A stretch of DNA of 64,000 bases from Lunularia cruciata (lineage: Eukaryota > Streptophyta > Marchantiopsida > Lunulariales > Lunulariaceae). Where the stretch lies: positions 27,256,243 through 27,320,242 of the forward strand of contig OX419761.1 of the NCBI GenBank assembly GCA_948567375.1, read 5' to 3'. Of the stretch, positions 22,474 to 58,670 are shown in pieces. The position numbers and the translations under genes were made by a program. The first letter of the stretch is position 1; the number at the start of each line of letters is the position of its first letter. The notes under the pieces were generated by a model, which worked only from the letters and a program-made list of their open reading frames with translations, made no database searches and was not told the DNA's origin.

Positions 22474-22702
22474 TTGTGATCGAGAATGAGAAAGACAGAC
22501 GGTTATGAGAGGAGATCAGAGGTGTTGATCGAGAAGAGGAAGCAAGGCTACACTCAAAACGTTCAGCACGGAGAGCCTATCGTTTCTATATAGGATTTGT
22601 GTAGGAACGAGGTGTGTTTGGAATGAAGTGTGTGAAAAAAACCATTTTGAAAGCTTGAAGGTTGGCTATGGTGATCAGAGAGTGTTTTTCAGTCATTACC
22701 TG
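22474..22702 (+). mobile_element. Leader of the Copia-like element, interrupted by the methyltransferase element
   Basis: Purine-rich, non-coding leader following the primer site. It stops at CCTG (22699-22702), which is repeated at 32617-32620 after the inserted Ty3/gypsy element, so the leader should continue from 32617. Confidence 0.5.
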
Positions 22703-22809
22703 TGTCGTGCGTATATACATCGCTACACAACATACATCGCTGTCAACATCATACACTATAAAAGCACAACTCACACATAAGTCATATATAGACTCTAAAG
22801 TGCCACAAT
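22703..22809 (-). repeat. LTR segment A, outer copy
   Basis: 107 bp, starting TGTCGTGCG at the CCTG duplication and ending CCACAAT where B begins. It is identical to A' (23261-23367) except for one base in the CATAYATAGAC region. A TATAAAA word occurs on the plus strand. Its presence outside B marks the permuted LTR structure. Confidence 0.85.
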
Positions 22810-23258
22810 TAATCAGATTGCTTAACATTCTCAACTCAACTCAACTCAGATCAATACTTGATCTGTCACTCTATAAACTGCCAACAACTGGGCACTGATT
22901 ACAGTCAAGCCACACCCACTCAAGCATAGAGAATCCAGGTGACGCTCGCCGGCCTCTGTCCACCATAGCCAGGAACTCGAAGGCTCAACATCAGAGAAGT
23001 GAGCTCTCTGGAGCTCACTTCGAAACTATACCCCCTGGACTCGAGCTAGCCCTGAAACCCTAACGGTCCCGCTGATGGCACACTTGACGGTGCAAACGGT
23101 GCAAAGTGACGGTGGGCCCCACCGTGAAGTCAGTACCCCAAACACAAAATCTAACCGTCGGAAAGTAGTCCCTGAGAAACAGCTAGAATAACTCTAACTA
23201 CCATCATTGGAACTCCAGTGTCCGAGCATCTAGATGCGGAACTACAAATGGCGTGACA
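22810..23258 (-). repeat. LTR segment B, left copy (3' LTR side)
   Basis: 449 bp from TAATCAGATTGC to GGCGTGACA, about 98 percent identical to 32169-32616. It contains the palindrome GTGAGCTCTCTGGAGCTCAC. Followed by GC and then A'. Confidence 0.9.
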
Positions 23259-23260
23259 GC

Positions 23261-23367
23261 TGTCGTGCGTATATACATCGCTACACAACATACATCGCTG
23301 TCAACATCATACACTATAAAAGCACAACTCACACATAAGTCATACATAGACTCTAAAGTGCCACAAT
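23261..23367 (-). repeat. LTR segment A', inner copy beside the polypurine tract
   Basis: Second copy of the 107-bp A segment. On the minus strand it begins ATTGTGGCAC immediately after a purine run, where a 3' LTR should start. Joined to B by the dinucleotide GC. Confidence 0.85.
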
Positions 23368-23381
23368 CGCCCCCCTAGCTG
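23368..23381 (-). promoter_or_regulatory. Polypurine tract-like sequence
   Basis: On the minus strand this reads AGCTAGGGGGGCG directly before the TGTGGCAC start of A'. Position and composition fit the plus-strand primer of an LTR retrotransposon. Confidence 0.55.
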
Positions 23382-23534
23382 GCGGTTAGGTCCCTCTAAC
23401 TCCAGATAGCCATCTACTCTAAGTATATGGTATACCCTCTAATGGGCAAAGATCAGGAGGCCGGGTGCTATGGAGCCCCATCATTAGTCGCCTGTCTGCA
23501 ATCTATACCATATAAAGAATGAACTAGCTATAGG

Positions 23535-26500
23535 TCAAGTACATCTAGGACATAACCACTGTCCCTGAGGAACCACCGTGAGGGGAGGAGTCATACATGC
23601 CATATGCCATCCTCTCGAACAGCTATCACACACTAACATAGTAGCAGCTCCACCAGAAGAGCCACATAACATACACCTCAAGCCTGCACGTACAAGTGCC
23701 AAGCTTGGGTCCATAGTACCATCAATGTTTGGGAGGTGGCATGGTGCACAATTGCGCACATGATTCTTCCAAACAACACCATCACGTCCTTCTAACACAA
23801 GGACTCCAGATGGCAAAACCTCGCGCACTCTCAAGATAGTGCAGCCTGTAGAAACATCAAGTGTCGTCGGTGCTGTCTGTTGTAGATATACATAGTCGCC
23901 TGGATGAAATCGACGGATCAAGGGTCTATAACCTCCTCCTCGAATGGTAGCATAGAGTAAAGTATCTCTATGCTGAGCAATCGCCAAGTTCTCAAAGGCC
24001 ATCGGCATCACTCTCCGAAAGATCTCTGCCCGCTGAGAACATGCGCTCATCCATACATCGGGGTCATCCAAGTCCAAAACTACAGTAGCATCTCGACGAA
24101 TGGCTACAGGTAAATCTGGATCTCGTCCATAGAGTAGAAAGTATGGAGAGAAGGATGCTAAGGAGGCTTGCCGGCTGAACCAATAGCCCATGGCCAACCA
24201 AGGTAACTGGAGATCCCAATCTCCCAAGTGGCCTCTCTGCAAACCATACTTTTGCAATCCTCTCTTCACCGTCTGAACCACTCTCTCTGCTAAGCCATCT
24301 GCCTCAGGGTGATCTCGGGATGTAGTACAATGATCAATCAAAGCCTTGTCACACAAGACCTGAAACTCTCCCAAGAACTCTGTACCCTGATCAGTCAAAA
24401 CCTCAGCTGGTGCACCAAAATGACTAAGAACTCGATCCAGGAACGAGTAAGCTGTCCCTTCACTAGACTTGTCAGGAAGTGCCACCAACTCAATCCACTT
24501 GGAGAAGTGCTCCACCATCACCAAAACATACCGATGATGTCTCACAGTCAGCGGTAAAGGTCCGGCGAAGTCCAAACTCCAACGGTAACCCAATCCCATG
24601 ATAGGTAATGGGTGTAACTGTGGCGTAGGAGCATTGAATGATGCTCTAACTCGGTCACAAACCACACATCTGGCAACAAACTGCTGTACCTCGGTCTGCA
24701 TACCGCGCCACCAATAATGACTCTGGAGTAAGCTATATGTACGCTTTACTCCAAAATGTCCTAGCTCCTCATGAGCATGACGGACCAACTGTGGTCTCTG
24801 TGATGGAAGTGGTACTACTCGCACTCTACCATCCTCCCATACACGCAAAAGGTGTCTACCCTCCAATCTGAACCGTCTGGCTCGCTGAAGAACACGGTCT
24901 CTCTCCTTGGCCCCAACTGTGCCACCCACAACACCAGTGCGAAGATAGTCCATCACTAAGACATCATCATGAATGTCTCGCTGAACTGTACCAATATCTT
25001 CACTCTCTGGATCTGTGACCTCAATAACTCCTCCTGTATGCGCTGAGAGAGATACCACCAAAGTCTCTGCAAATATACACAGAAAGGCTGATGCATGCCA
25101 ACCTGGCACCATCTCCTCATCTGTCTCACCATGCCAACGTGCTCCGGTCTGATCCTGCTGGCTGGGACATGGGTTTCTACTCAACCCATTTGCATCACGG
25201 TTCACCACTCCAGGTCTGTGAACAACCGTGAAATCATACTCCTGTAAAATCAGAGCCCATCGTGCAAGCTTCCCTGAAAGCTTGTCGGACTCCATCAACC
25301 ACTTCAGCGGCTGATGATCAGTGATGAGAGTGAAGGGGTTACCAAATAGGTAACATCGGAAATGTGCTACTGCCCAAACTGCTGCCAAGCACTCTCCCTC
25401 ATATGAACTATACTTTGCCTCTGCTGAATTGTTGGAGCGACTAGCATAGGCCACCACAAACTCCTTCTCCTCATCATCATGCTGGATGAGCACCGCTCCA
25501 AGTCCCAACATACTCCAATCAGTGTGAACCTGAAATGGTCGTCCCCTGATCGGTCTCCTCAAAATAGGAGCAGATGTCAACCTCTCCTTGAGCTCTACAA
25601 AAGCTCTCTCCTGCTCATCTCCCCAACACCACTCCTGTGTAAGCTTGGTTAGCTTCGTCAAGGCCTTGGCAATGGCACTAAATCCTCTAACATAGCGGCG
25701 ATAGAAGTTTGCCAACCCAAGGAATGCTCGCACTCTGCTCACATCCGTAGGCCAAGGAATACGTGCAATAGCCTCCACCTTGGTCTGCTGAACACCAAGT
25801 CCTCCAGGGTAGATAGTGTGACCCAAATACTCAACCTGCTCATGGAAGAACCTACACTTCCCAGGATGTAATTTGAGTCCATGAGATCTCAACCTCTCAA
25901 ACACCTCCAACAACTGTCTCTCATGCTCCTCCACAGTAGTGCTATACACCAAAATGTCATCAATATAGCACCGAGCAAAATCCAGTCCAGCTAGGATCCT
26001 ATCCATGACCCTCTGGAACTCAGCAGGAGCATTCTTCAACCCAAATGGTAAGAATCTCCACTGATATAACACATCCTTGCCGTGAGGATCAATAGCCCAA
26101 AATGTTGTCTTGGACTTATCTTCCTCCCTTATCGGCAACTGATGATATCCCGCTCGAAGATCCAAAGTACTAAAGACCTTTGCATGCCCAATCGCATCAA
26201 AAATCTCCTCCGGTGTAGGCATGGCATACCGATCAACCCTGGTCTGTCGGTTGATAGGACGGTAATCTCCACACATCCGCCTATCTGTATAGTTGCCATG
26301 CATATCCTTCTTGGCTGGCATCACTGTCGCTGATGCATACTCTCCATGTGAAATCTCCACCAAACCAGCCTCAAAAAGGTCACTACTCCGGCTCTGAATC
26401 AATGTCCTCTCCATGTCACTATATCGATAAGGACGTCGGAAAACAGGTGTGTTGCTAGTCAGCTCAATCCGTATACCAAGTCCCTTCAGAGCACCCAAAT

Positions 26501-26540
26501 CCTTCATACTGAAGGCAAAACAACTCGTGTGACTCCTCAA
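23535..26540 (-). CDS. Pol: reverse transcriptase, RNase H, integrase, C-terminal PHD finger
   Basis: A 1001-residue open frame. The same frame continues upstream to the TAG at 26649, so the true domain start precedes the first Met. Reverse transcriptase spans about 30-330, with PFGLKNAP near 165 and the catalytic YIDD at 192-195. RNase H follows (VHTD about 338-341, EGEC about 381-384, TDHQPL about 407). Integrase has the zinc-binding H590, H595, C625, C628 and acidic residues D657 (SLDFAGP), D717 (TDQGTEF) and E752 (DGLAE). The last 45 residues form a C4HC3 PHD finger: C956, C959, C971, C974, H979, C982, C997, C1000, with W995 before the last pair. All catalytic residues are intact. A PHD finger occupies the place held by the chromodomain in chromoviruses. 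Confidence 0.93.
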   Translation of the reverse strand: MRSHTSCFAFSMKDLGALKGLGIRIELTSNTPVFRRPYRYSDMERTLIQSRSSDLFEAGLVEISHGEYASATVMPAKKDMHGNYTDRRMCGDYRPINRQTRVDRYAMPTPEEIFDAIGHAKVFSTLDLRAGYHQLPIREEDKSKTTFWAIDPHGKDVLYQWRFLPFGLKNAPAEFQRVMDRILAGLDFARCYIDDILVYSTTVEEHERQLLEVFERLRSHGLKLHPGKCRFFHEQVEYLGHTIYPGGLGVQQTKVEAIARIPWPTDVSRVRAFLGLANFYRRYVRGFSAIAKALTKLTKLTQEWCWGDEQERAFVELKERLTSAPILRRPIRGRPFQVHTDWSMLGLGAVLIQHDDEEKEFVVAYASRSNNSAEAKYSSYEGECLAAVWAVAHFRCYLFGNPFTLITDHQPLKWLMESDKLSGKLARWALILQEYDFTVVHRPGVVNRDANGLSRNPCPSQQDQTGARWHGETDEEMVPGWHASAFLCIFAETLVVSLSAHTGGVIEVTDPESEDIGTVQRDIHDDVLVMDYLRTGVVGGTVGAKERDRVLQRARRFRLEGRHLLRVWEDGRVRVVPLPSQRPQLVRHAHEELGHFGVKRTYSLLQSHYWWRGMQTEVQQFVARCVVCDRVRASFNAPTPQLHPLPIMGLGYRWSLDFAGPLPLTVRHHRYVLVMVEHFSKWIELVALPDKSSEGTAYSFLDRVLSHFGAPAEVLTDQGTEFLGEFQVLCDKALIDHCTTSRDHPEADGLAERVVQTVKRGLQKYGLQRGHLGDWDLQLPWLAMGYWFSRQASLASFSPYFLLYGRDPDLPVAIRRDATVVLDLDDPDVWMSACSQRAEIFRRVMPMAFENLAIAQHRDTLLYATIRGGGYRPLIRRFHPGDYVYLQQTAPTTLDVSTGCTILRVREVLPSGVLVLEGRDGVVWKNHVRNCAPCHLPNIDGTMDPSLALVRAGLRCMLCGSSGGAATMLVCDSCSRGWHMACMTPPLTVVPQGQWLCPRCT

Positions 26541-26648
26541 GAACCTCCAAACCCTCCGTCTTTCCTCTCCAGTAAGCTTGGGTCCAAGATCTGGCTCCCA
26601 AGTATCCTCTGTAACTGTAGTAGGAGTGGAAGACGTACTGACTGGCTG

Positions 26649-26651
26649 CTA
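26649..26651 (-). other. In-frame TAG between methyltransferase and reverse transcriptase
   Basis: Plus-strand CTA, read as TAG in the pol frame; the next codon is CAG. The frame is open for 37 codons on the downstream side before the first Met of the RT frame. It is either a readthrough stop or a CAG-to-TAG mutation. Confidence 0.85.
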
Positions 26652-28463
26652 CACTGGGCCCTTGGGAGCAATGGTGTCATGCTCCCGACCACTAGAGGTC
26701 CCAACCTCTGTGTGAAAAACTCCCTCCACTCTGGCTGCAAGCTCCATACGTCCTCTGGCTGCATCCCATGTGGACCAAGGGTGTAATCCAAGTAGCCCAC
26801 GCTCACCTGGATGGACTCCAAGTAGACCACTCTCCCTAGTAGCTACTGGATGTGTCCCAAGAATACCATGTCCACTCGGTCCATTGCCCCCAGCATGTGC
26901 CTGAATCATCTCGATAGGCACAGGGCTCACAAGTGTCCGAGTGGTGATGCCTATCAAGCGCATCCTACGCTGCTCTGCCAAACCAAGGCTCACAATCCAG
27001 GTCAAACAGTTCAGGTCCATAGCCTGACCTAACACCTGACGCCTAGATGCCTCTGACACTATTGGAACAGCGGTAATACCGGTACGAAAACCCATCGCCC
27101 GCTCTCTCTCATCAGCATTGGGCTCCACCAACTGCTGTAACTGTGAGTCCCAAACAAGTCCAGGTCCTCCCTCTCGAAAAGCATGAGAGCCTGGGAAACT
27201 CATGAGTGTGGGAAATGCAGCTCTAGGCTGTCCAACTAGGTTCACCACTGCCATAGGTAACCTATCAGCCACTACCACTGTCTGAGACTGACGTCCAGCA
27301 TCCAAGATATCATCAACAAGAATGTGGTCTAGTCGCTGAATCCCATCATAACTACGCTGTAGAACCTCTCTGGGTAAAAGGTTCGTCCACCAAAGACGAA
27401 GACGATGAGCCCGTGATCCCACTCTGGCTGCATCTAACAATACAGCAGGTCCCATCCAAGAATGGACCTGATGTGTACTCGCCACCACTCTAGTGCGAGA
27501 ATCACCCATCAATGGAAAGTTCTCCAAAAGGTAAGCTGGAGAAACAGACTGATGAACCTGGAGATGTTGTAGTATCCGTAACATCTCCCAAAACACACCA
27601 AAACGAGGATCTTGAAGACCCAAACCGCGGCCCGCACGTGTATGTCCCTGACATGGCCATCCAGAAATCACCAAGTGAACAGGCCCATGTCTCTCTAGGT
27701 CATGCGCCCCCAGTAAGGAAATGTCTCCTGGTAAGGCCTTCTGGTAACCTCTGACTGCTGACATCGGTAATAACTCCGGATACCGATAGGCCAAGTGTGC
27801 CACATGATGTAGAGAGACTCGCCTAGCAGTCTCATCTCTCTCTACATACAAGTACCTCTGTACTCGGATACCCGCCTGTAACACCGCAGCTAGTCCGGTG
27901 CTGATCCCACCAAACAACTCCAATAGGCATATCCCCTCTACTGGATACTGCCAAGCAATGAGTGTGGTATCCAGAGGTGTCAAAGCAATTGCCTCTGGAG
28001 GCTCATCCTCACACTCATCCCCTGATGGTACGAAGGCTCCACTCCAAGCCTGCTGCACCAACTGATTTGCATGCTGCTGCAATGCCTCCTCTGAACTCCA
28101 CAATGGAACATCCAAGGTGGATGGAACAATCCCACTCGTACTCCATAGCCGAGTGATCTCCTCTGGTACTGGAGTATCCTTTGCATGGGCGTTCCCCTCC
28201 AACAAGTCACCAGGCCAAGTGACTGCACCGCTGAAAGCCAAAACTGATGCTGCCATGGTCCCGGACTGTAGTGAGCCAAGACTGCCACTACTGAAACGTA
28301 CTAGTAGACGACATACCCGTCCCTCACCAGACTGCCAACCAGGTCTATAAGAGGCTATCTCTTCCCAATAGTCAATGCTAAAACCCATAGGGTATAACAC
28401 TGCTCTCCCAACTAGCACATCATAGGACTCAGCTATCGTCGCAATAGTCTGAGCTCTCACCAC
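26649..28463 (-). CDS. Protease C-terminal half fused to a cytosine-5 DNA methyltransferase
   Basis: 604 codons, ending in TAG at 26649-26651; the frame is the same as the downstream pol. Residues 1-35 (SYDVLVGRAVLYPMGF) are the end of a retropepsin. The methyltransferase covers about 178-495: motif I LELFGG (181-186, AdoMet binding), acidic motif II VERDE (207-211), motif IV SGWPCQG with catalytic Cys271, motif VI LLENFP with Glu314, motif VIII AHRLRLWW (about 352-359), ERERAMGF (452-459) before motif IX/X, and motif X LGQAMDLN (478-485). A short target-recognition region lies at about 370-450. Motif order is linear (not the permuted DRM order) and the wording is closest to DNMT3-type enzymes. 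Residues 515-550 carry three GxLGxHP repeats. No key residue is missing, so the enzyme could be active if translated. Confidence 0.9.
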   Translation of the reverse strand: MVRAQTIATIAESYDVLVGRAVLYPMGFSIDYWEEIASYRPGWQSGEGRVCRLLVRFSSGSLGSLQSGTMAASVLAFSGAVTWPGDLLEGNAHAKDTPVPEEITRLWSTSGIVPSTLDVPLWSSEEALQQHANQLVQQAWSGAFVPSGDECEDEPPEAIALTPLDTTLIAWQYPVEGICLLELFGGISTGLAAVLQAGIRVQRYLYVERDETARRVSLHHVAHLAYRYPELLPMSAVRGYQKALPGDISLLGAHDLERHGPVHLVISGWPCQGHTRAGRGLGLQDPRFGVFWEMLRILQHLQVHQSVSPAYLLENFPLMGDSRTRVVASTHQVHSWMGPAVLLDAARVGSRAHRLRLWWTNLLPREVLQRSYDGIQRLDHILVDDILDAGRQSQTVVVADRLPMAVVNLVGQPRAAFPTLMSFPGSHAFREGGPGLVWDSQLQQLVEPNADERERAMGFRTGITAVPIVSEASRRQVLGQAMDLNCLTWIVSLGLAEQRRMRLIGITTRTLVSPVPIEMIQAHAGGNGPSGHGILGTHPVATRESGLLGVHPGERGLLGLHPWSTWDAARGRMELAARVEGVFHTEVGTSSGREHDTIAPKGPV

Positions 28464-28470
28464 CGAGCTA

Positions 28471-30525
28471 TCAGTCGGATGACCAGGCTGAACCTGGACA
28501 ACAAGGTCTCCACGTGTGATGTACTATGTCGAACCACCACCTAGAGATGTCTGGATCTGAAATGGACACCTCTCCACATCGGTCTTCCGTAACCAGACCA
28601 ACAACTGCAGCCTTCCCCAACATAAGGGGCTGTGCACCAGAGTCTAACAAGACTCTCTGTGGTGTATAGACCTTCCCTGAAGGTCCCACTAAACGAAAGA
28701 TCCCCCTCTGGTTATCCAATAGGATAACACCAGGTGTAAACCGCGCTCTCTCAAAGGCCGGTCTAGTTGGCAACTCCTCCAGCCTAGCCGCTGCTGCCTG
28801 CCATAAACCACTGGTCGCTGAACGGATCCCATGCTCCTCAACCAAGTCAGCTCCACTACCAACCACCTCTGCTCTAGTAGTAGGAACTGCACCATCCCTA
28901 CTCTCACACAACGTGGCAGCCAACTGGAACACAGGGGCTGGGTCAACTCCCAATGTAAACATGTCACTGGCTGAAAATAAAGGATGCTGCATAATCAGCT
29001 GAGCCGCCCCCAACATCATGCTAGACTCAGTCTGTGTAGTAGCAGGTGGCTGACTAGCAGGTAGTCCATCATGTACTCCATCACCACCTACCACACCTGC
29101 ACTGGGACGTCTAGGAACCATGGATGTCATCTGCAATGCCTCAGATAGCGTGAAAGATTGGGGAAGTCTGACCTGTCTCCCAACCTCTCCTCTTTGTGGG
29201 TCCAACTCCACTGATGCTCCTCTAGGCTCTGGAGCACGTACTGCACTCCTAGTCACTGTTGTAGATGCCACCACCTGTGCTGCTCCACACATGAAGTCCA
29301 AAGCATCTCTATCACCAGCATATGAGGTGGAAGCCTCAGCACCCGAATCTGATCTCCTCTGAGCAATAGCCATACTAGCCAATCTCTGCTCCAATTGCTC
29401 AATCCGAGTAGCCATAGCTGTGTCAGAAGTAAGGGCAGGTACTGCACTCCTACTAGGTGTAGATCCTCTACCACCACCTCTACCACCTCGTCCTCCATGA
29501 ACTGGAGCTCCTCTACTACCTGCCATAGCAGCCCTACCACTCCGTAACTCCGGGTGTAGGTCAAAACACCGGTCACTAGTATGACCAAATCTATGGCAGT
29601 GCTCACACTGCCTCTGTGCTGGCTGTGATGCACCAGAGGTATCAGGTCCGCTGCCCTGAGTACACTCTCTCCTATGGTGAGGTCCACCACAAGTCCAACA
29701 AGCAACACCACCACTCACTGGCTGCTGCTGACCCGAAAATGAGGGTAAGGGTCTAACTCCACTAGGCCCTCCACTCGCTCCATAGGATCTGGGCTGTCCA
29801 CCCTGTCCTCGAAAACCAACTGGGCGTGGTGCACTCTGCTGCACTCTAGAAGAAGTCACAACCGTGGATGAGGTCTCTCTACCAAATCCAGCTGTCACCA
29901 CTCTCTCCTCCACCATGTTGAGCTCAATACGCTCAGCCAAACCAAAGACTACTGCCAAAGTGGGCGAAGTAGCCTGCAACAACGTAGCATCACGAACTCT
30001 ACGTCGCAACTTCCTGTCCAGTATCCCATACCAAAACTGGACTGCCTGGGCCTCAGTAACTCCCTGAGTGAAACTGATCAGCCGCCTCATGCGAGTGTAT
30101 GCCTTGCGTAGGCTCTCTCCAGCCTTTCGCTGGAACTCCTGCAAGCTCCTCAGCTTGTCAGTCCGCACTCCCTGGTAGTTTTGCCTCAAACATAGGAAGA
30201 ACTCAACCATGGGGTTAAACCCCGATACCACACCACCTCCTGCAGCGGTACCTCCACTCGTAGTAGCACTATCTCCAGCTAGTGCACCTCCACTAGCTCC
30301 ACCCACACTACTCGAGCTAGAACTCGTAGGTACAGCCGATCTACTCCTGGCCACCGAGCCTGAAGTGATAGAGACATAGTGAGGAGACCAATACTGTCTC
30401 CATAACTCAATCTCCTCCAAATGAGCTCTCCTGAACTCATGGTAATCGTCCATCGGTGGACCCTCCAAGTGCTGAAACAACCCCTTCCATGCCATGAAAG
30501 GTGTGAACAAAGTCGGGTTCCGCAT
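28471..30525 (-). CDS. Gag with two zinc knuckles and the N-terminal half of the protease
   Basis: 684 codons. The retrotransposon gag (capsid) region spans about 100-215, including FWYGILDRKLRRRVRD. Two CCHC-type knuckles follow: CWTCGGPHHRREC at about 276-288 (spacing one residue short of canonical) and a canonical CEHCHRFGHTSDRC at 307-320. An RGG-rich stretch at about 340-356 suggests nucleic-acid binding. The retropepsin active site LLDSGA has its Asp at about 628. The reading frame then leaves the protease: the following protease segment is in the next frame and carries a TAG at 28524-28526. The first codon here directly follows a TAG (30526-30528) that separates it from more gag sequence. 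Confidence 0.88.
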   Translation of the reverse strand: MRNPTLFTPFMAWKGLFQHLEGPPMDDYHEFRRAHLEEIELWRQYWSPHYVSITSGSVARSRSAVPTSSSSSSVGGASGGALAGDSATTSGGTAAGGGVVSGFNPMVEFFLCLRQNYQGVRTDKLRSLQEFQRKAGESLRKAYTRMRRLISFTQGVTEAQAVQFWYGILDRKLRRRVRDATLLQATSPTLAVVFGLAERIELNMVEERVVTAGFGRETSSTVVTSSRVQQSAPRPVGFRGQGGQPRSYGASGGPSGVRPLPSFSGQQQPVSGGVACWTCGGPHHRRECTQGSGPDTSGASQPAQRQCEHCHRFGHTSDRCFDLHPELRSGRAAMAGSRGAPVHGGRGGRGGGRGSTPSRSAVPALTSDTAMATRIEQLEQRLASMAIAQRRSDSGAEASTSYAGDRDALDFMCGAAQVVASTTVTRSAVRAPEPRGASVELDPQRGEVGRQVRLPQSFTLSEALQMTSMVPRRPSAGVVGGDGVHDGLPASQPPATTQTESSMMLGAAQLIMQHPLFSASDMFTLGVDPAPVFQLAATLCESRDGAVPTTRAEVVGSGADLVEEHGIRSATSGLWQAAAARLEELPTRPAFERARFTPGVILLDNQRGIFRLVGPSGKVYTPQRVLLDSGAQPLMLGKAAVVGLVTEDRCGEVSISDPDISRWWFDIVHHTWRPCCPGSAWSSD
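28524..28526 (-). other. In-frame TAG inside the protease segment of pol
   Basis: Plus-strand CTA, 21 codons upstream of the first Met of the methyltransferase frame and in the same frame. It splits the protease, so this copy probably cannot make a full protease without readthrough. Confidence 0.8.
28580..28602 (-). other. Frame change inside the protease (1 nt)
   Basis: Upstream of this point the protease is read in the gag frame; downstream it is read in the pol frame. Relative to the gag frame the shift is +1. Both programmed frameshifting and a single-base insertion fit. I see no obvious slippery heptamer, so mutation seems slightly more likely. Confidence 0.6.
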
Positions 30526-30915
30526 CTACTGCAGATCACACCAACTATCAAACTCCTGGATGAAGTCATCCAACTCAATGGTACCCACTGTACCAAAGTA
30601 ACGCCTAGGGCCTTTGGAGGCCCCATAAATCTCATCCATGTCCCACAACAACGGTGCGGACACACCAAGTGCACTCTCAACTGAATCAGCTCCTGTGTCG
30701 AACTCCAACTCTAAGTCAATCTCCTCCCTCACTGGGACCTGAGATACAGGCTGATACCGAGCACCACTCCGAGTAAACGCACTGCGTACTGCAGGGCTAA
30801 CTCCTCTAGAATCTCCAAAGAACTCCGTCGTGACCACGTAACTGCAACAGCAAACCCAAACCACCAACTGCAACCGCAAGTACCCCACCAAGTGCCAACA
30901 CCAACTAAACACCAC
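30526..30915 (-). CDS. N-terminal gag segment
   Basis: 129 codons ending in TAG (30526-30528), immediately followed in frame by the ATG of the main gag-protease frame. The segment (LDDFIQEFDSWC near its end) reads naturally into the next frame, so both were one gag protein. Residues 1-30 are hydrophobic and may be upstream leader rather than real protein. The true start codon is uncertain. Confidence 0.65.
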   Translation of the reverse strand: MVFSWCWHLVGYLRLQLVVWVCCCSYVVTTEFFGDSRGVSPAVRSAFTRSGARYQPVSQVPVREEIDLELEFDTGADSVESALGVSAPLLWDMDEIYGASKGPRRYFGTVGTIELDDFIQEFDSWCDLQ

Positions 30916-32168
30916 CCACTAATGTAACTCTACCGAGATAACTACACTAGGAGAAGGGCAACCTGTAACCTGCCATCATAACACGCACTCTCACGGTCTG
31001 CAGGTCATCACTTCCTGCCTCACCGGAGAGAAACAAAGGTAGTCTGACTGGTCATCACTCCAGCCTCACCACCGAGAGCACACCAGAGCACCAACGCTCA
31101 AAAGTCAGAGCACCTCACACAAACGTGGTGCACAAACAAGAAGCAAAGAATGGAGGGGATCCAATCACAAGAAATCTAAACGAAAACCCTCCATCTCATA
31201 ACACAACACGAGATTGACTCTGCCACCATTTGGCATTTGACATAAGAGTAGTTCGTATCTAAGTCCTAAGCTACCAGGATCACCAAGAATGGGATCAAAC
31301 TGCCTCTCCTAGCCAAAGCTACATGTGTATAGATAACAGTGGTACAGTCACTATGACAACAAGTGAGGGTTGACCAGTTGGCTAGGGCACCAGTCTAGGA
31401 ACAAGAGATCTAGGGGTCAAACCCTGTTGCGTACAATCTAGCAAGAAAGGCAGATTTTGCCAACCAATGACCAAGATCTACACTAAACTAGCTAGCCTCA
31501 CGCCAGCAAGCTGGCTTGCTGGCCCTTCTAGGCCTTCGTAGCCTCTCATAGCCCACAGCCCTATGCCTCGAAGCCTCGAAACGCCAAAATTCAGCCAAAT
31601 AAGGCCTTTCTTGTTGCCACTTCGAACCTCCTCCAAAATTGGCGAAACTTCTCCAAATCTGTGAAACTCCTCCAAACTAGCAAAACTTCTCCAAATCTGG
31701 CCAAACAGCGAAACTCCTCCAATTCTGGCCCAAAAATCTGACATAAATCTGACGTAAAATCTGACGTAAACCCTAAAGATGGATGTCCGCCAAATCCCCC
31801 GCTAACTTTCCACTCGAGCCAAATTGACAAAACGGGTTTTTCTAAATCACAATTTTATGAGAAGAGCTTTCCAACTCCACCTTCAATTTTACTTTCTGAG
31901 CCCAACTCGTAGCAAATTGGTCATGCCTTCACCTCCTGAGCTCAAAATCACAATACTGCTCGAAAATTGCTCTTTCTTTGCTCGAAATTTGGCCAGCGCT
32001 TCCGCACACCGTCCGCCTAACTGCCAAATTTGCATCAACTACACGAGCTTCTACACACTAGGGAAACACAGAACCTGAATCGAGCTACCACGATCCACCA
32101 AGCTTGGAGATACCACCAACACTCAACATTCCTGCACCCGATTTCCCCCTGACTTCACTTCTCTGATG
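30916..32168 (-). mobile_element. Non-coding leader of the methyltransferase element
   Basis: 1.25 kb between gag and the right-hand B repeat. It contains degenerate tandem words (three AAATCTGACRTAA-type units near 31731-31760, and several CGAAACTCCTCCAAA-type units near 31640-31715) and a tRNA-like patch at 31369-31436. Next to the LTR, the minus strand reads CATCAGAG, sharing ATCAGAG with the initiator tRNA-Met primer site; a full primer site is not evident. Confidence 0.6.
31369..31436 (+). ncRNA. tRNA-like fossil or SINE head (A-box and B-box-like)
   Basis: GACCAGTTGGCTAGGGC matches a tRNA D-arm and A-box layout (compare GCTCAGTTGGTTAGAGC). Some 23 bases later AGGGGTCAAACCCT forms a T-arm-like stem with loop GTCAAAC, in a B-box position. 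The anticodon arm does not pair cleanly, so it is not a functional tRNA. It lies antisense to the retroelement leader. Confidence 0.4.
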
Positions 32169-32616
32169 TAATCAGATTGCTTAACATTATCAACTCAACT
32201 CAACTCAGATCAATACTTGATCTGTCACTCTATAAACTACCAACAACTGGGCACTGATTACAGTCAAGCCACACCCACTCAAGCATAGAGAATCCAGGTG
32301 ACGCTCGCCGACCTCTGTCCACCATAGCCAAGAACTCGAAGGCTCAACATCAGAGAAGTGAGCTCTCTGGAGCTCACTTCGAAACTATACCCCTGGACTC
32401 GAGCTAGCCCTGAAACCCTAACGGTCCCGCTGACGGCACACTCGACGGTGCAAACGGTGCAAAGTGACGGTGGGCCCCACCGTGAAGTCAGTACCCCAAA
32501 CACAAAATCTAACCGTCGGAAAGTTGTCCCTGAGAAACAGCTAGAATAACTCTAACTACCATCACTAGAACTCCAGTGTCCGAGCATCTAGATGCGGAAC
32601 TACAAATGGCGTGACA
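32169..32616 (-). repeat. LTR segment B, right copy (5' LTR side)
   Basis: 448 bp matching 22810-23258 with about ten substitutions and one base fewer in a C run. It abuts the CCTG duplication on the right. No A segment accompanies it. Confidence 0.9.
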
Positions 32617-34336
32617 CCTGCGTTTCAAAGTGAGTTATGGTGAACAAGATATCAAGTGATAGATCAAAGCAAAGACTTTGTTTCAAGCTCAAGATTAGTT
32701 TGTGCACTAGAGCGAACGAAGTGTGGTGAAGAAAATTCTTTTTTTGGTGTATGCATTTGATGGTTTTTGAAGAAATTTGCTGTCAAGTCAAAGACTACTC
32801 AAGATCTTCAATCTACATCTGTTTTTGATCAAAGAAAGCTCAACAGGTCAGTTTCAAGGAGCTAGAGATTGAATTTGACAAATCTGATTTCAGATTTGGA
32901 ATCAGAGCAGGTGATTTACCACAGAGAAGCCCCTGGAGGCAAAATCTTGCAGTCTGGTTTTTGATGTGGTTTTGAGCTTTAGGTCATTTTTCGTGGGTGC
33001 GGTGACCGGACATCCATTCCTCTCAACATTTCACGACCTAGAAATTTATTTTTTGTACTTTTGGTCATACAATACAGTATATGCATACAATATGGTACTA
33101 GGAGTTCCATTTGACTGTGAAAAGATTCTCTATATAAAAGGAATAAACCAAAGAGCATCTTTTAGCCCTTTCTTGTCTTGTAGCGCTTGGAGGATTAGTC
33201 GAATAATTTTGAAAACTTTTCATGGTGCTATCATACAAGTTAACTTGCTAGAAAAAAAGACGGATCTAGCTTGTGATTTTTCCTTCTCTTCCCATTGCCA
33301 AGATTCCCTCAAGGGGTCAAAAAGGAGGAGAATCAAAGGTTTTTACCTCCTTAGGTTAAATAGTGAATAACCTTTTTACCATAAGTTGATTTCAATTATC
33401 ATTTACATATTTGAAATTGGGACTTTGGCGGCTATGCAAAAATGTAATCAAATCTGTGTTTCAACAACTTTCATCTTTTGGCCGATTTTGAGGTGAATTT
33501 TTGGAAGTAAGCACTTGTTTGTAGGAGAGTTGAAGATGGAGAACACCCGTTGGGCTCTAAACAAGTGAACAGGAGTGGGAAACTTCTCTTTGTGGGCATG
33601 TGATATCAAAGACAAGGTCATGGCTCATGGGAACAAGGCTGCATTTTCTTCTCAACTGCCTATTGGAATGAAGCAAGAGGAGTGGGAAGATTAGGAAGGA
33701 GAGGGTTTGCAGTTTCATCCGTTTGAATCTCTGTGATGAGATTAAGTTGGAAGTCCTCACAATGAATTCTTGTGATGAGATCTAGGATCACTTACAAAAG
33801 AGTTACTTGAACAAGTCATCTTCCAGTAGGATGCTTGCCAAGGCCCAAGTATGGTCTTGTATGATGTAGGAAGGAGGAGATCTTGCTTCACATGTGCGGC
33901 ATTGAACATCTTTGTCTTGTGAGAGCATAACTCTAGGAGATAGTCCAATGAAAGTCTTATTCCTATTTTTTCACTTTAGGTGGAACTTAAGTTTGCCAAT
34001 TTATAGTTTATTCCTCACTCTTAAAGGTTATTACTTTGACTTGCCTTTTTGGAAGTAACAAAGTTTGCCATGGCACTCATGAGTTTTTGAGCATAAACTC
34101 AGTACAAGGGGTATTGACACTTGCTCCGCTACTTTTGCATTACGTGAAACACTCATGAAGTTGCATGGGCTATTGTGGAGGTTTATTATAACAACCTTTT
34201 GCTTCCTATAGTTGTTTAGAGTTTTAGGGCTCAAACATCCATATCGCTTGTTGCGATATACTCTATCTAGTCCTTTGATGCTTCACTCCATCTCAACCAA
34301 GATATCATCCATTCTTCTCCTACTTCAATCCACTTA
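32617..34336 (+). mobile_element. Continuation of the interrupted Copia-like element and unassigned flank
   Basis: Starts with CCTG, the duplicate of 22699-22702, and continues as purine-rich leader with a second GGAATCAGAGCAGGTGATTT segment at about 32899. Open frames (134 codons at 32966-33370, others shorter) show no Copia gag or pol motifs, so coding remains are unrecognisable. The extent of the Copia-like element within this interval is unknown. Confidence 0.35.
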
Positions 34337-34914
34337 TGTAAAAGACCAAGATCAAGAAGAGAAATAGGAGAATGGAAGACCGGAGTGAGAGATCACATTG
34401 GGACACTTGAATGAGGGAAATTCTAAATGTTTAGCTTAAGCTTGGGCTTTGGTATTTATAGAATAACATACAAGGCTCTTGAGAAACTTTTCAAGAAGCT
34501 TCCTCAAAGTCGCTTTCTTAGAATGCATGCCAAGTTAACTTGGAAACTTCTCAAGAAGCTTCCTTCTAGAAGCCATATACTTGGCATGCAAGCTAAGCTA
34601 GCCTAGAAGCTTCCCAATTAACTTGACTTTCACTCTAAGCTTCCTAAGAAGGTTCTTTCTAGAAACCACCTACTTGGCATGCAAGCTAAGCTAGCAAGGA
34701 AGCTTCCCAAGCTAAGCTAGCAAGGAAGCTTCCTAAGCTTCTTCCTATGAGTCACCACTTTGCATGCATGTGACCCAATACTTGGAAGGCACCAAGAAGC
34801 TTCCTAGAAGCTTCTAGAAGCTTACAAATAGCCTAGAATATTCTAGGCCTATTTTTTACTTTGTTAGTCTTGACTAACTCATTGGTAAATTCCATATTGA
34901 TACAACACACATTT
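34337..34914 (-). repeat. Solo LTR of the AT-rich chromovirus family
   Basis: 578 bp beginning TGTAAAAGACCAAG and ending ATATTGATACA on the plus strand, matching the LTRs of copies 1-4 in minus orientation. It has a TATA box (TATTTATA at 34453-34460, read on the minus strand) and many AAGCTTC palindromes, including GAAGCTTCTAGAAGCTT near 34806. No internal region and no convincing target duplication. Confidence 0.75.
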
Positions 34915-35735
34915 GTTGATCTATTTCATAGTTCATATACATGACTTTTGCTTGGTCTTCTAATTTTAGGTCACTTAATCTTTCAAGTCTTGTTGGTTTG
35001 TGTTTGAGGACATTTGTGCTCTACTTTGCTACATGCTTTGCTTAGTGCTTATTTATTGCATGATTTATATCCATTTTCTATTGCTATCAATCAAAAAATA
35101 TTTATATTTTGTTCGTGCTTAGCCTTACTTTTGATCTATTAGATTCACTTCATCTCTTTTTTATGGATTTATTATTCATCTTGATTTGCACATATCATGT
35201 TTAATTTTCATCGGCTTCATATGCATTTAATGAGTTCTAGATCCCTCGTCCTTCAAACTGGTTTTGCTCTCATGTCCTAATATCTAACTAGTTGGCACAT
35301 TATGAATGCAATGGTACGGCTAGTGCTTAGCCACCATTTTTCTTTATTAAAAAAAATATTGTATCCTACTTTGTTATAAATCTTGAAGGTCTTGCCAGTC
35401 AACAATAGTGGTCTAGGTTTGGTAAGATGGTTTACGTATTACTTGCTAGATGCACAAATTGTTGTCAAGTAGGTTCATTATAGTGTGTGATTACTCAACC
35501 TATCGGCTCATTGCTTGTTAGGTCCGGGTTAGTTTTCTTGTTCATCACCATGTAGGATTGGTAAGTTTATGTACATACTATTTGTTTGTTGCAACAATAG
35601 TTGTCTAGTTGTCAAGTAAGCTGATTATAGTGTATGATGATTCAAATAGTTGTTTGTTTTGTGTTTGTTTCTTTTTCATTTCCTAAAAGTGACATGATGC
35701 TCCTCATACACTCCTAAGTTTTTTTTTTTCTTGTA
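34915..35735 (+). repeat. Repeat X, plus-strand copy, first part
   Basis: From about 35140 this matches the reverse complement of the window end (64000 downward): GATTCACTTCATCTC, TATGGATTTATTATTCAT, CATATGCATTTAATGAG, and TGTCCTAATATCTAAC versus TGTCTTAATATCCAAC. It is interrupted at 35736 by chromovirus copy 1 and resumes at 41205. It contains two diverged tandem copies of a roughly 150-bp block with GGTAAG and TCATTATAGTGT landmarks. No coding motif is seen. Confidence 0.6.
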
Positions 35736-36103
35736 TGTATAAAAGACCGAGACCAAGGAGAGAAATAAGAGAATGGAAGCTCATATTAAGACACTTGAAT
35801 GAGGGAAAACTCCAAATGCCTAGCATGAGCTTTGGCTCTTGTATTTACAAGAAGCATACAAGGCCCTTGAGAAGCTTCTCAAGAAGCTTCCTTGAGCCGC
35901 TTTCTTGGAGTGCAAGCCAAGTTAACTGGGAAGCTTCTCAAGAAGCTTCTTTCTAGAAGTTGCTTACTTGGCGTGCAAGCTAAGCTAGCCGAGAAGCTTC
36001 CCAAAAAGCTTCCTAGATATTTCTAGAATATTCTAGGCTAATTTGTCTTATTTGCTACTTTGTTAGCCCTACTAACTTTGTTGCTAAACTCCATATTGTT
36101 ACA
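35736..36103 (-). repeat. 3' LTR of chromovirus copy 1
   Basis: 368 bp from TGTATAAAAGACC to ATATTGTTACA, matching 40789-41204 but shorter through loss of one AAGCTTC-rich module. On the minus strand it follows GGTGTGGGAATA, a polypurine tract. Confidence 0.8.
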
Positions 36104-37480
36104 TATTCCCACACCGCTAGTTGGTGATGTCCTTGTTGCCAGTGAAGCTACAAACTCTTGGATGGCCAGTTGTGGATTCTTGAGATGAGAAAGAGGTACC
36201 CATGTGGCATCATGAAGGGGATACCCTTTCCAAAGGACCTTGTATTCGGTATGTTGTCAACGGCTTTGTTGAATATAGCAATGTGCAAGGATACGATCAA
36301 CTTTGTACTCCTCATGATCATTAATAAGGACAAGAGGAGGGGGAAGTTGGACTCAAGAGGAAAAAGAAGAGGGGTTAGGAACAAAGGATTTCAACTTGGA
36401 AATATGAAAGACAGGATGGATGCGCATATGACAAGACAAGGCAAGTCAATAAGTAATAGGAGAGACAATTTGGGTGTTGTCAAAGGGTCATATCCAATTA
36501 GGGGCAATTTTACAAACTTAGGTATCAAGTGGGAGAGGGAGGTTATTGGATGAGAGCATGAACTTATCACCAACTTGAAAGTTGAGATCAAGGCGATGGT
36601 GATTTTCATATTGTTTCTTCCAATTTTGAGCAACAAGGAGATGAGATTTGGCTTGTTGGAGGGATTGAGAGATGGTGGTCAAGAAGGTGGAAGTATGAGG
36701 GACATGAGACAGTGGAGGAGCAAGAAAGGAATCTAGAACAAGAGTGTCTTGGCCAAAATTGAGAAAGAAAGGAGAGAATTTGGTGCTTGCTTGTTTAGAA
36801 TTGTTGTATGCAAATTCCGCAACTGCAAGACATTCATCCCAATTGGTATGATCAATGTTGACAAAGGCACAAAGCATATCTTCCAAGGTGCGGTTTGCAT
36901 GTTTAATTTTTCCATCATTTTGAGGATGATAGGCTGTGGACAAAACAAGCTTGGTGCCAAGTATCTGAAAGAGTGCTTGCCAAAACTTTCCATTGAAGCA
37001 AGGATCACGGTTGGAGATGAGTACACACAACATCCCATGATGCTTGAATACACTGTCAAAGTAGAGTTGTGCCAAGGTTGGAGATCCACAGTATTAAATC
37101 CATTTGGCACCAATGATGCCAAATGGATTTTCTTACTAAAATTATCCACAAACACCACAATTGATGTGTGACCTTTCTTTGTCTTGGGCAAGGAGGTGAT
37201 GAGATCTAAGCTCACATGTTCCCAACAAGTAGCTGGAATGGGGAGTGGCTGAAGGATTCCACTCGGCTTTTGGTTATTGGTCTTCTTACATTGACAACTC
37301 TCACACAATTGGTCAAACTCCTGAACATCTCTTGTCATGTTGGGCCACCACCATTGGCATTAGAGGGTACCAAAGGTCTTGTCTACACCCATGTAACTAG
37401 CTATTGGTAAATCATGGGCTTCTTGAAGGCGCACAAGTCAAAGATCACCTTTGGCTGGAACATAGATCCGGTCCTCATGG
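36104..37480 (-). pseudogene. Copy 1 integrase and chromodomain relic
   Basis: Minus-strand pieces in order: FDQLCESCQC (zinc-binding Cys pair), LDLITSLPKT (first catalytic Asp), LISNRDPCFNGKFW (second Asp), and STAYHPQNDGKIKHANRTLE, where the catalytic Glu position of the usual GQxER word is Lys. A C-terminal chromodomain follows (EYKVLWKGYPLHDATW near 36180-36240). Frames are split by stops and shifts, so it is non-functional. Confidence 0.75.
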
Positions 37481-39090
37481 AATAGAAGGCTTTCCTTGAA
37501 GGAGAAGGTGTTGTACTTCTTGTCACATGCTATCAGACAACCATGTACCATTTGGAGAAGAGATCTTGTTGTAGAGCTGACCAAAACTTGTTATGGACCT
37601 TGGAGTCAATTGACACCGTCATAATTGCCGTCATGATGAGAGGAAGAGACTTCAAATTAGGTCATTGTGATAGAGCATCAAGGATGACATAAAACCAACC
37701 TGGTTTGTACTCAAGTTTGATGTCAAACAATTGGAGTTGCTCCCCTCAACGATGATGTCAACTCTTCATGTGTTCCAAGTGTAAGATATGCAATAATGGT
37801 TTATGATCAATTTGCATGATCACTTGTTTCTCCAAGAGATAATGCCTCCATACCTTGGTGGCATATACGATTGCAAGTTGTTCCCGATCTCAAGCAGAGT
37901 AATTTTCTTTCAGCTGTACTTAGTCAGCAAGAGATAAAGACAATGGGATGTGTAGTCTATTTGGGAATTCTTGTTGCAACACGGCTCCAATTGCAAAGTT
38001 AGAAGCATCAAAATCAACCACATAAGGTAGTTGAGGATCATATGGTTGAATCGGTCTGAGTACACTATATGTTTCAACTTCTAGAATGCTTCTTCAAGCT
38101 TGGTGGTCCACTAGAAGCTCAAGTTCTTCCCCAAGATGTCAGTCAACGGTGCAGCCACATGAGTACAATAGTGGATGAATCGTTGGTAAAAACAGGCCGA
38201 TCCATTGAATGCTCGTACTTTTGTAGCATCCTTTGGAGTAGGCCAAATCAATAATGGCCTTGATTTTCTCCTCTTCCATCTTGATCCACTCCAATGAGAT
38301 CTTGTGACCCAAGAAGGTAACCTCTTTCTGCCAAAAGGCACACTTTGACTTCTTGCAGTAAATTTCCATTGATGTAGTCGTCTTAGGACTTCTTGTACAT
38401 GATTCATGTGTTCTGCCTCTATCTTGCTATAGATTAAGGTATTGTCCAAGAACACAACCATATACCAATCCAATAGTCCATCCAACACCCAATGCATTTG
38501 ATCCATGAACACAATTGGAACATTAGTGAGCACAAAAGGTAGAACTCTCCACTTAAAATACCCATACCTTGTGCAAAAGGTAGTCTTTTGCACATCCTCC
38601 CTATCAATGGGGATTTTCCAATAGCCGCTGTGAAGATACAACTTGGAAAAGTATCATGCTCCACTCAATTCATCAAGCAAGTCATAGATCCAAGGCAAGG
38701 GATATGCATTCTTCATTGTTTGCTTATTGAGCCCACCATGCTTTCAATATAGAAGTGAAGTCCTCCATCCTTCTTTGTAACAAATAGTATCGGTGCTCTC
38801 CAAGGAGAGGTACTATGTCATATGAAGTCCTTCTCCAACAACTTGTAAGTGTTGTTTGCAACTCCTCCAACTCCTTTAGTGAGAGCTGATAGATTGGTCT
38901 ACTCACTGGAGTACTCCTTGGCAATAACTCAATCTTGAAGGGCATACCACAATTGGAGGGTAATCCCTTTGGTAGATCATCCAGAAACACATTTGCAAAC
39001 TCTTGAACTATCTGATCAACCATTGCTTGATGAGGCTCTTGGCCCTCCTCAGATTGTCCTTGTGCAATTGGCTTGATCCACACCGCCAAA
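37481..39090 (-). pseudogene. Copy 1 reverse transcriptase and RNase H relic
   Basis: Minus strand: FKIELLPRSTPVSRPIYQLS (RT start), SGYWKIPI and FCTRYGYFKWRVLPF, then the YxDD box region degenerate as MVVFLDNTLIY (second Asp changed to Asn). FNGSACFYQRFIHY marks the thumb-connection region, and RNase H words follow. Multiple stops and shifts. The catalytic motif change alone would inactivate it. Confidence 0.7.
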
Positions 39091-40788: not shown

Positions 40789-41204
40789 TGTAAAAGACCA
40801 AGATCAAGGAGAGAAATAGGAGAATGGAAGTTCACATTGGGACACTTGAATGAAGGAAATCTCCAAATGCCTAGCATGAGCTTTGGCTCTTGTATTTATA
40901 AGGAGTATACAAGGCCCTTGAGAAGCTTCTCAAGAAGCTTCCTTGAGCCGCTTTCTTGGAGTGCAAGCCAAGTTAATTGGGAAGCTTCTCAAGAAGCTTC
41001 CTTCTAGAAGTTGTTTACTTGATGTGCAAGTTAAGCTAGTTAGAAGCTTCCTTCTAGAAGTTATCTACTTGGGGTGAAAGCTAAGCTAGTTGGGAAGCTT
41101 CCCAAGAAGCTTCCTAGATACTTGTAGAATATTCTAGGCTAATTTGTCTTATTTGCTACTTTGTTAGTCCTACTAACTTTGCCGCTTAATTCTATATTGT
41201 TACA
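40789..41204 (-). repeat. 5' LTR of chromovirus copy 1
   Basis: 416 bp from TGTAAAAGACCAAG to ATATTGTTACA. It contains a TATA box (plus-strand TATTTATA, 40893-40900, read on the minus strand) and an AAGCTTC-palindrome array upstream of it in the transcriptional sense. Confidence 0.8.
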
Positions 41205-48011: not shown

Positions 48012-48485
48012 TGTAAAATGTAAAAGATCAAGAGTCAAGACAAAAATAAGAGAATGAAAGATCACATTGGGACTCTTGAATGAGGGAAACTTTGAATGCC
48101 TAACATGAGCATAAAATTTGGTATTTATAGGGAAATATACAAGGCTCTTGAGAAGCTTCTCAAGAAGCTTTCTAAAAGCCATATGCTTGGAGTGCAAGCC
48201 AAGTTAATTGAGAAGTTTCCTTCTAGAATTTGCCTACTTGGCATGCAAGCTAAGCTAGCCAAGAAGCTTCCCTAGAAGCTTTCTTCTAGAAACCACCTAC
48301 TTGGCTTGCAAGCTAAGCTAGCTAGGAAGCTTCCCAAGAAGATTCTTCCTTGGCATGCACATTACCCAACACTTAGAAGGTGCAAAGTAGCTTCTTACAT
48401 GCTTCTAGAATATTCTTAACTAATTTGGCTTATTTGCTACTTTGTTAGTCTTAACTAACTCATTTGTAAGCTCCATATTATTATA
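48012..48485 (-). repeat. 3' LTR of chromovirus copy 3
   Basis: 474 bp from TGTAAAATGTAAAAGATC to ATATTATTATA. On the minus strand it follows the GGTGGGGGAATA polypurine tract. Its partner is 62139-62653. Confidence 0.8.
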
Positions 48486-58268: not shown

Positions 58269-58670
58269 TGTAACAATATGGAGTTTAGCAACAAAGTTAG
58301 TCAAGGCTAATATAGTAGTGAATAGGCCAAATTAGCATAAAATATCCTAGAAACTTCTTGAGAAGCTTCCCACTTACTTAGCTTGTACCCCAAGTAAATA
58401 GTTTCTAGAAGGAAGCTTCTAGAAACTTCCAACCAACTTAGCTTGCACGCCAAGTAAGGGGTTTCAAGATGGAAACTTCTTGAGAAGCTTTCTAGTTAAC
58501 TTGGCTTGCACTCCAAGAAAGCGGCTCAAGGAAGCTTCTCAAGAGCTTTGAATACTCCCTATAAATATGAGAGCCAAAACTCATGCTAGGCATTCGTAGT
58601 TTCACTCATTCAAGTGTCTCAATGTGAGCTTCCATTCTCTTATTTCTCTCCTCAATCTTGATCTTTTACA
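58269..58670 (+). repeat. 3' LTR of chromovirus copy 4
   Basis: 402 bp, TGTAACAATATGGAG to CTTTTACA, partner of 49845-50274. It contains the GAAGCTTCTAGAAACTTC motif at 58412-58429. Confidence 0.8.

Follow-up and report, generated by a model that had tools for sequence, protein, structure and literature searches.

The window analysed here, a 64,000-nt stretch of the Lunularia cruciata genome (contig OX419761.1, positions 27,256,243 to 27,320,242), holds on its minus strand an element that almost certainly belongs to a Ty3/gypsy-type retrotransposon family with split direct repeats, in which a first open reading frame (ORF1) for Gag, protease and a DNMT3-type cytosine-5 DNA methyltransferase (MT) is followed by a UAG of the leaky type and then by reverse transcriptase (RT), RNase H, integrase and a PHD finger. 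An earlier note on this DNA had proposed, for 26649-28463, a Ty3/gypsy family carrying its own DNA methyltransferase (DNMT); both Pfam domains and genomic copies support that proposal, and the coordinates are right, the open reading frame (ORF) there lying on the minus strand (the plus strand of the same interval is full of stops). The split repeats, self-primer, PHD finger and joint footprints described below go beyond that note. Read 5' to 3', the element runs B', leader, Gag, protease, MT, TAG, RT, RNase H, integrase, PHD, purine tract, A2, GC, B, A1, where A and B denote its repeats, and its features lie in the window as follows:

22703..32616 (-): whole element, 9914 nt, with ends TGTC...GACA
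22699-22702 and 32617-32620: 4-bp target duplication CAGG, flanking the element
32169..32616 (-): repeat B' at the 5' end of the element, 448 nt, 97.6% identical to B, inferred to hold promoter, R and U5
32385..32389 (-): TATAG, its first nucleotide 28 nt upstream of the self-primer word
32347..32361 (-): self-primer word, the predicted 5' end of the RNA, an exact 15-nt complement of the primer-binding site (PBS)
22988-23002: second copy of the self-primer word, within B
32155..32169 (-): candidate PBS at the border between B' and internal sequence
30526..30639 (-): N-terminus of Gag (MDEIYGASKGPRRY...), start counted by hand
28471..30525 (-): Gag, in which two CCHC-like knuckles can be made out by eye, and the beginning of the aspartic protease
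near 28633-28644 (-): protease motif DSGAQP, read by eye, position counted by hand
26649..28463 (-): end of protease, linker, putative DNMT3-type MT and C-terminal tail, 604 aa
26949..27938 (-): MT domain, residues 176-505 (pLDDT at least 90 over most of it; motif counts)
27651-27653 (-): catalytic Cys271 of the MT
26643..26651 (-): TAG CAG CCA, a stop that separates ORF1 from pol, in the UAG-CAR-YYA context of type I readthrough
25812..26288 (-): RT (YIDD), by Pfam
25236..25625 (-): RNase H, by Pfam
24306..24803 (-): integrase, H2C2 zinc finger and catalytic core by Pfam, acidic triad by eye
23541..23675 (-): PHD finger at the integrase C-terminus, by Pfam and PDB matches
23368..23378 (-): candidate polypurine tract (PPT) CTAGGGGGGCG, directly before A2
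23261..23367 (-): repeat A2, 107 nt
23259..23260 (-): GC spacer, creating the palindrome GACAGCTGTC at the A2/B joint
22810..23258 (-): repeat B, 449 nt
22703..22809 (-): repeat A1 at the 3' end of the element, 107 nt

The order of protease, RT, RNase H and integrase is that of Ty3/gypsy elements, the last three being recognised by Pfam and the protease by its motif; a Pfam scan of the Gag-protease ORF gave zero matches, and a Pfam match to the protease was obtained only in the relative P0064. Integrase is followed by a PHD finger (Pfam) instead of the chromodomain of chromoviruses, and the best PDB matches of this finger include CHD4, KMT2D, KMT2C, PHF12, DPF3, KAT6A, KDM5B and PHF21A, several of which presumably read unmodified H3K4. 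Two lesions of the window copy are read as damage, namely a stop in gag (30526-30528), at a position where the Marchantia proteins P0010 and P0060 have none, and a frameshift inside the protease; the MT ORF is still open. The CpG ratio of the element is not distinctive (0.48 vs 0.42 in the rest of the window).

Within the 604-aa ORF all of the C5-methyltransferase motifs that had been named are present in the order given, motifs I to X follow one another without rearrangement, and the suggested check against PF00145 returned a match at 23.9 bits (cut-off 22). The neighbours are also as described, with the protease motif (by eye) on one side and RT, RNase H and integrase (Pfam) on the other. 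Sequence matches in PDB were led by DNMT3A, 3B and 3C (best 1e-8), followed by M.HaeIII (0.0074), DRM2 (0.09) and HhaI (0.14), and a family profile matched DNMT3A at 5e-23, an entry titled just 'DNA methyltransferase' (4onj) at 1e-11, DRM2 at 3e-9, M.HaeIII at 6e-6, and DNMT2 and HhaI at 2e-5. AlphaFold modelled most of residues 166-505 with a pLDDT of at least 90, and residues 1-119 and 509-604 below 50. Because the motif order is the usual one and the solved structures closest in sequence are those of DNMT3A, 3B and 3C, the element MT is, to judge from its sequence, an unrearranged DNMT3-type enzyme and not a DRM. The DRM class was rejected as a candidate, its rearranged motif order being absent from the element MT. 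Among the best 20 of 157 phage MTase records, identity was at most 33%.

In the host genome searched (566 Mb), the window MT has at least 73 scored matches, the window included, which apart from the window itself are 96-97% identical to it. PF00145 gave 123 genome matches, the best 12 of which comprise eight element copies and four loci (L059-L062) that are not element copies. When places were chosen by the 3' repeat pattern alone (the first 12 listed of the 530 A.GC.B.A matches described below), an MT was found in the stretch at the expected distance in 11 of 12; two of these 11 have the MT shifted or deleted in part, and the twelfth place holds inverted gag and leader instead. The domain is a trait of the family, and the objection that the earlier note had raised against itself, of a one-off insertion with other copies lacking the domain, falls away.

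The intact catalytic residues had been taken to imply past selection, which can now be given as a measurement. Across 31 MT copies, a non-random sample made up of those top-ranked by likeness to the window MT and of ten hand-picked further down, and with omega corrected for the mutation spectrum, variants shared by at least two copies comprised 33 nonsynonymous and 50 synonymous changes against 54.3 and 23.8 expected (omega = 0.29, p = 2e-8), whereas singletons (103 nonsynonymous, 53 synonymous; omega = 0.80) did not depart significantly from neutrality (p = 0.11; Fisher test of the contrast, p = 1.2e-4). Recurrent deamination can mimic the sharing of variants among copies; outside CG and CHG transitions the shared variants still number 7 nonsynonymous and 22 synonymous. 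Omega was 0.41 for RT-RNase H (p = 0.03) and 0.59 for integrase-PHD (p = 0.12, not significant), each over 17 copies, with c06, c07, c14 and c16 left out for indels of more than 60 columns. P270, C271, E314 and N315 are retained in 31/31 MT copies and R356 in 27/31; the MT is open in 19 of the 31 and has stops in the other 12. Singleton transitions per site in the MT were 0.31 at CG, 0.21 at CHG, 0.066 at CHH and 0.023 at A/T. The shared variants reflect selection during copying, and the singletons the decay of inserted copies that carry CG and CHG methylation; the MT itself is, by this measure, under purifying selection during the spread of the family.

The MT ORF closes with a TAG (26649-26651) in the window and all 20 fetched copies; the next six nucleotides are CAGCCA in the window and in 19 of the 20, and behind the TAG the frame stays free of stops for 90 codons in 15 of the 20. 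Damage of the window copy was considered as an explanation of this TAG and ruled out by its presence in 20/20 copies. UAG-CARYYA is a type I readthrough context (PMC5382211). Upstream, the protease motif is in frame with the MT in six of the eight loci L001-L008 (the exceptions being the window copy and one other), among the at least 73 scored matches 14 have open frames of 1402-1448 aa, a length close to that of Gag-protease-MT (stops are also listed for some of them, so that the in-frame protease motif carries more weight), and the predicted proteins P0060 of Marchantia and P0001 of Calypogeia end, by eye, at about the same place. The MT closes ORF1 (Gag-protease-MT), and RT-RNase H-integrase-PHD continues in frame behind the TAG. 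The earlier placement of the MT 'in the pol frame' is correct in that its frame is that of RT, and incorrect in that the two do not form one ORF, the TAG separating them. It is quite probable that this UAG is a leaky stop; because the MT precedes it, the MT would be made at the level of Gag, and pol only via readthrough.

The direct repeats of the element are split, with A-B-A at the 3' end in 18 of the 20 fetched copies and B at the 5' end in 19, and 15 of the 17 copies with both ends readable are TGTC...GACA elements with a 4-bp target duplication. The spacer between A2 and B is plain GC in 17/19 copies (c02 has AC, and in c19 GC is followed by a substitution in B). Across the genome, the pattern A.GC.B.A has 530 exact matches, against 0 for a reversed control, and A.GC.B followed by the PBS word only 5, although 14 of 18 readable copies have the PBS word without a mismatch. 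Of the features of Ty3/gypsy elements, TG..CA ends and a target duplication of 4-6 bp are present, and an identical complete long terminal repeat (LTR) at both ends is absent (B 5', A-B-A 3'); conventional LTRs were ruled out for nearly all places by the 3' A-B-A ends and the counts of 530 versus 5. Split direct repeats are shared with DIRS, PAT and Ngaro elements; no Pfam match to a tyrosine recombinase was found in the four ORFs scanned, and target duplications are present, so the element departs from that group in these respects. B and B' differ by about 2% in the window copy, and on average by 1.36% within a copy and 2.09% between copies. At L010 and L030 (copy c02) the 3' end runs on as A.ac.B.A.ac.B, a tandem or nested copy with the AC spacer.

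At the border between B' and internal sequence, 15 nt are the exact complement of nt 256-270 of B', a length reached by none of 300 dinucleotide shuffles (maximum 12). Of the 19 5' B repeats found, 17 match the 13-nt core of the primer exactly, and 14 of 18 readable copies match that of the PBS; TATA[GA] precedes the self-primer word, with 21-27 nt between them, in 16/20 copies, and CTAGGGGGGCG abuts A2 in all 19 copies with a readable A2 start. A tRNA primer was rejected, since by eye there is no such site at the B' border and the self-complement was found there instead. The self-primer and purine tract point to minus strands primed by the element's own RNA and plus strands primed at the PPT, with an LTR that would have the form A.GC.B. 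Four of the five A.GC.B-PBS exceptions (L071, L072, L073 and L074) were inspected. In L071, L072 and L073 B and A1 are separated by 5' leader sequence (91, 97 and 174 nt, respectively); A1 is whole in L071, begins at nt 4 in L073, and in L072 comprises nt 1-76 after 20 nt of filler; L074 reads purine tract, A.GC.B, then leader and internal sequence (tandem or conventional). The leader between B and A1 in three copies is a possible footprint of joined overshooting DNA ends.

In retroviruses, integrase cuts two-LTR joints at their palindrome (PMC1180852, PMC1905944), and the palindrome GACAGCTGTC resembles such an LTR-LTR joint. These observations tip the balance slightly towards integration via a two-LTR circle opened at the palindrome. 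The split repeats could also arise in the manner of PAT and Ngaro elements, by direct circularisation guided by the inner A-B joint and not by LTR synthesis and end joining, a route suggested by a layout that is the same as in DIRS-type elements and is also stated for the KnitGypsy element of Klebsormidium (PMC5890265); we hold it to be rather unlikely for an element whose purine tract abuts A2 and whose self-primer site abuts B', three copies of which carry surplus leader at the B|A1 joint, and which has a gypsy-type integrase, TG..CA ends, 4-bp duplications and no tyrosine recombinase among the Pfam matches of the four ORFs.

A first protein search returned 59 matches, including Calypogeia fissa, Marchantia polymorpha, Sphagnum, a fragmentary Closterium match and unnamed metagenome proteins, the nearest named ones being from Calypogeia and Marchantia at about 60% identity. 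A profile search gave 188 matches (120 of 188 listed), and a third search, with the MT, integrase and PHD of P0109 as query, gave 185 (120 of 185 listed), among those listed being Haematococcus lacustris, Pleodorina starrii, Volvox reticuliferus and Chromochloris zofingiensis. Because relatives occur in bryophytes and green algae, 'rare', as the earlier note had it, understates their distribution. An MT is present in 119 of the 120 matches listed from the third search, a proportion biased towards the MT because the query held MT, integrase and PHD; P0180 is a PHD-gypsy protein without one. No protein named Klebsormidium is among the matches listed (59; 120 of 188; 120 of 185), and no relatives with DNA in viral contigs were found.

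RNase H precedes the MT in all 70 listed proteins in which both were found; the MT precedes RT in Marchantia P0063 and in the window. The window integrase-PHD is 44-51% identical over about 440 aa to the chlorophyte proteins P0155, P0193, P0230 and P0249, and 28% over 113 aa to a gypsy integrase fragment of the same window. For the MT the corresponding values are 26-35% to the same four proteins (P0249 over 207 aa only) and up to 40% to the unnamed P0109, and for RT-RNase H 41-47% in the three matches of more than 350 aa to proteins with RNase H before the MT. In a midpoint-rooted tree of 129 near-full-length MT domains (the window and 128 of 254 proteins, matches of the element-MT searches only), the window belongs to a clade of 13 rows (support 100) nested in a set of 29 rows (support 94), which holds the rows with Gag or protease before the MT and stands apart from 98 rows whose readable orders have RNase H before the MT; P0058 and P0239 fall between the sets, and the deepest fork is weak (63). 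C271 is retained in 127/129. We read this as what may be one old PHD-gypsy lineage with an MT in two places, by a move or a second capture; one may speculate that a single capture, if so, would predate the 'independent acquisition' proposed in 2018 for Klebsormidium. Motif IV reads WEC instead of WPC (Glu for Pro) in 55 of the 129 element MTs, and a G-patch domain is annotated in the ENA proteins P0109 and P0143, lying in P0109 between MT and integrase.

Taken as a whole, the best explanation, and one that we consider moderately likely, combines a gypsy family, a leaky stop, self-priming, circle integration, an MT that works on element DNA and a PHD tether. The RNA would start in B', and its first approximately 15 nt would fold onto the PBS in Tf1-like self-priming; reverse transcription would yield linear DNA with the LTR A.GC.B, whose ends would be joined into a two-LTR circle with the joint B|A; integrase would cut the 5' LTR at its palindrome GACA-GC-TGTC, and the opened circle, now B-internal-A.GC.B-A, would be inserted with 4-bp duplications. 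Because it precedes the leaky stop, the MT would be present at a Gag-like level and packaged with the particle, and it would methylate element DNA de novo, probably at CG, before or at insertion; action on element DNA is a step to which we give a little less than an even chance. The PHD finger would tether integrase to nucleosomes, probably with unmodified H3K4. With MT methylation and a PHD tether, new copies would therefore land among the marks of silent plant chromatin or bring such marks along, and this might lower harm to the host or protect the complementary DNA (cDNA). More tentative is the full proposal of a gypsy lineage extending from algae to bryophytes that pairs a DNMT3 writer with a PHD reader, integrates, at least in this host, from a two-LTR circle that its integrase opens at a palindrome, so that circularly permuted repeats serve both reverse transcription and integration, and in bryophytes makes the writer at Gag level ahead of a leaky stop and marks element DNA before insertion.

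Several observations weigh against this account. The CG and CHG decay shows host methylation of the copies, not self-methylation, and the copies behind the omega values are top-ranked plus hand-picked, not a random sample. B and B' of one copy are strictly nearest to each other in 5/17 copies, and nearest or tied in 8; no special RNA fold was found 3' of the TAG (z = 1.1); and a 7-nt word 54 nt inside the leader, which resembles the start of an initiator-tRNA primer site, leaves a small chance of tRNA priming. In L072 the A repeat is incomplete and preceded by filler, so that this end is not clean, and the other circle isomer (B-A.GC.B-PBS...) is absent from the four inspected of the five exceptions, although a two-LTR circle would offer two equal palindromes and the circle route gives no reason for such a bias. 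The isolated MT of KnitGypsy gave no methylation in yeast, a result that its authors considered inconclusive (PMC5890265).

Among other roles for the MT, one in trans, in which it would silence rival or sibling copies or the host genome and limit copy number without acting on its own cDNA, fits an enzyme encoded in the Gag-side ORF and expected to be an abundant product, and copies heavily decayed at CG and CHG; it is nevertheless unlikely, host enzymes being able to explain the CG and CHG methylation (the top PF00145 loci L059-L062 are not element copies), while 530 split 3' ends and at least 73 near-identical MT matches argue against strong self-limitation. More doubtful still is that the MT binds or methylates RNA or serves particle assembly, DNA methylation not being its selected role: the PF00145 score is weak, the WEC substitution recurs across the relatives and the MT adjoins Gag, but the catalytic Cys, Glu-Asn and Arg are retained in 126-128 of 129 and the nearest solved relatives are DNA enzymes. 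That the MT is a useless passenger carried by chance, for all the stops in 12 of 31 copies and the neutral look of the singletons, is highly improbable and already contradicted by a shared-variant omega no weaker than that of RT-RNase H and by MTs in element proteins from green algae to bryophytes.

Elsewhere in the window, other retrotransposon remains lie at 36518-38641 (-), with an RVT_1 match at 38111-38641 and integrase-like pieces without a Pfam match at 36518-37338 (-), and a weak RVT_1 match, under the cut-off, lies at 54712-55200 (+). Units of 50-63 bp, alike by eye (AAGCTTCT.../AGCTAAGCTAGCC...), occur at 34383-36017, 40992-41102, 48211-48348, 49935-50077, 58350-58521 and 62346-62496, and longer tandem arrays, with periods of 60/180 bp and 156 bp, at 53836-54183 and 56917-57339.

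The usual targets of DNA methylation are parasitic elements; here one of them encodes the enzyme itself, which is under selection. Hundreds of copies of the element occur in a land plant, and named bryophytes hold relatives. Its permuted repeats offer a testable case of two-LTR circle integration by a gypsy integrase, a route disputed for retroviruses, and the two placements of the MT in what may be one PHD-gypsy lineage raise the question of whether the domain moved or was captured twice.

Parts of the proposed cycle have counterparts in elements built differently: Tf1/Sushi and Tcn1 have conventional LTRs and a chromodomain, and the spumavirus is a retrovirus with conventional proviral LTRs. 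Self-priming is predicted for Tf1/Sushi and Tcn1 as it is here (PMC6317226), and in the spumavirus model of two-LTR circle cleavage integrase opens the palindromic joint, as we propose (PMC1180852). The chlorophyte and metagenomic gypsy proteins (those of Haematococcus, Pleodorina, Volvox and Chromochloris among them) resemble the window element in integrase-PHD; where their order is readable the MT lies between RNase H and integrase, whereas in the window element it lies between protease and RT.

That retrotransposon-borne DNMTs are not a new concept, as the earlier note acknowledged, is borne out by the description of DNMTs in retrotransposons of dinoflagellates and Klebsormidium (de Mendoza et al. 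2018, PMC5890265), restated in 2025 for streptophytes and dinoflagellates with LTR Copia and DIRS families named (PMC12344493). The main text of a plant LTR survey contains neither 'methyltransferase' nor 'PHD' (PMC6317226), and among open-licence PMC titles and abstract starts, which are weak evidence of absence, nothing on DNMT-bearing gypsy elements of land plants or chlorophytes, or on a PHD integrase, was found beyond de Mendoza 2018 and papers citing it. SymbioDIRS-Dnmt3 is similar in having a Dnmt3 MT in a retrotransposon with A-coding-B-A-B repeats, and its MT is active on CG in yeast; it differs in having a tyrosine recombinase and a DIRS RT, where the window element has a gypsy-type integrase (PMC5890265). 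The closest known system is KnitGypsy-Dnmt3 of Klebsormidium nitens, which has in common gypsy domains, an unrearranged Dnmt3-type MT and DIRS-like repeats (PMC5890265). The likeness is one of description. None of the terms 'PHD', 'target site', 'split direct' and 'circular' appears in the main text on that element (PMC5890265). KnitGypsy-Dnmt3 is under purifying selection (Ka/Ks < 0.2), as is the MT of the window family, and its MT is said to lie in the Pol ORF (PMC5890265), whereas in the window family the MT ends ORF1 before a leaky-type stop in 20/20 copies.

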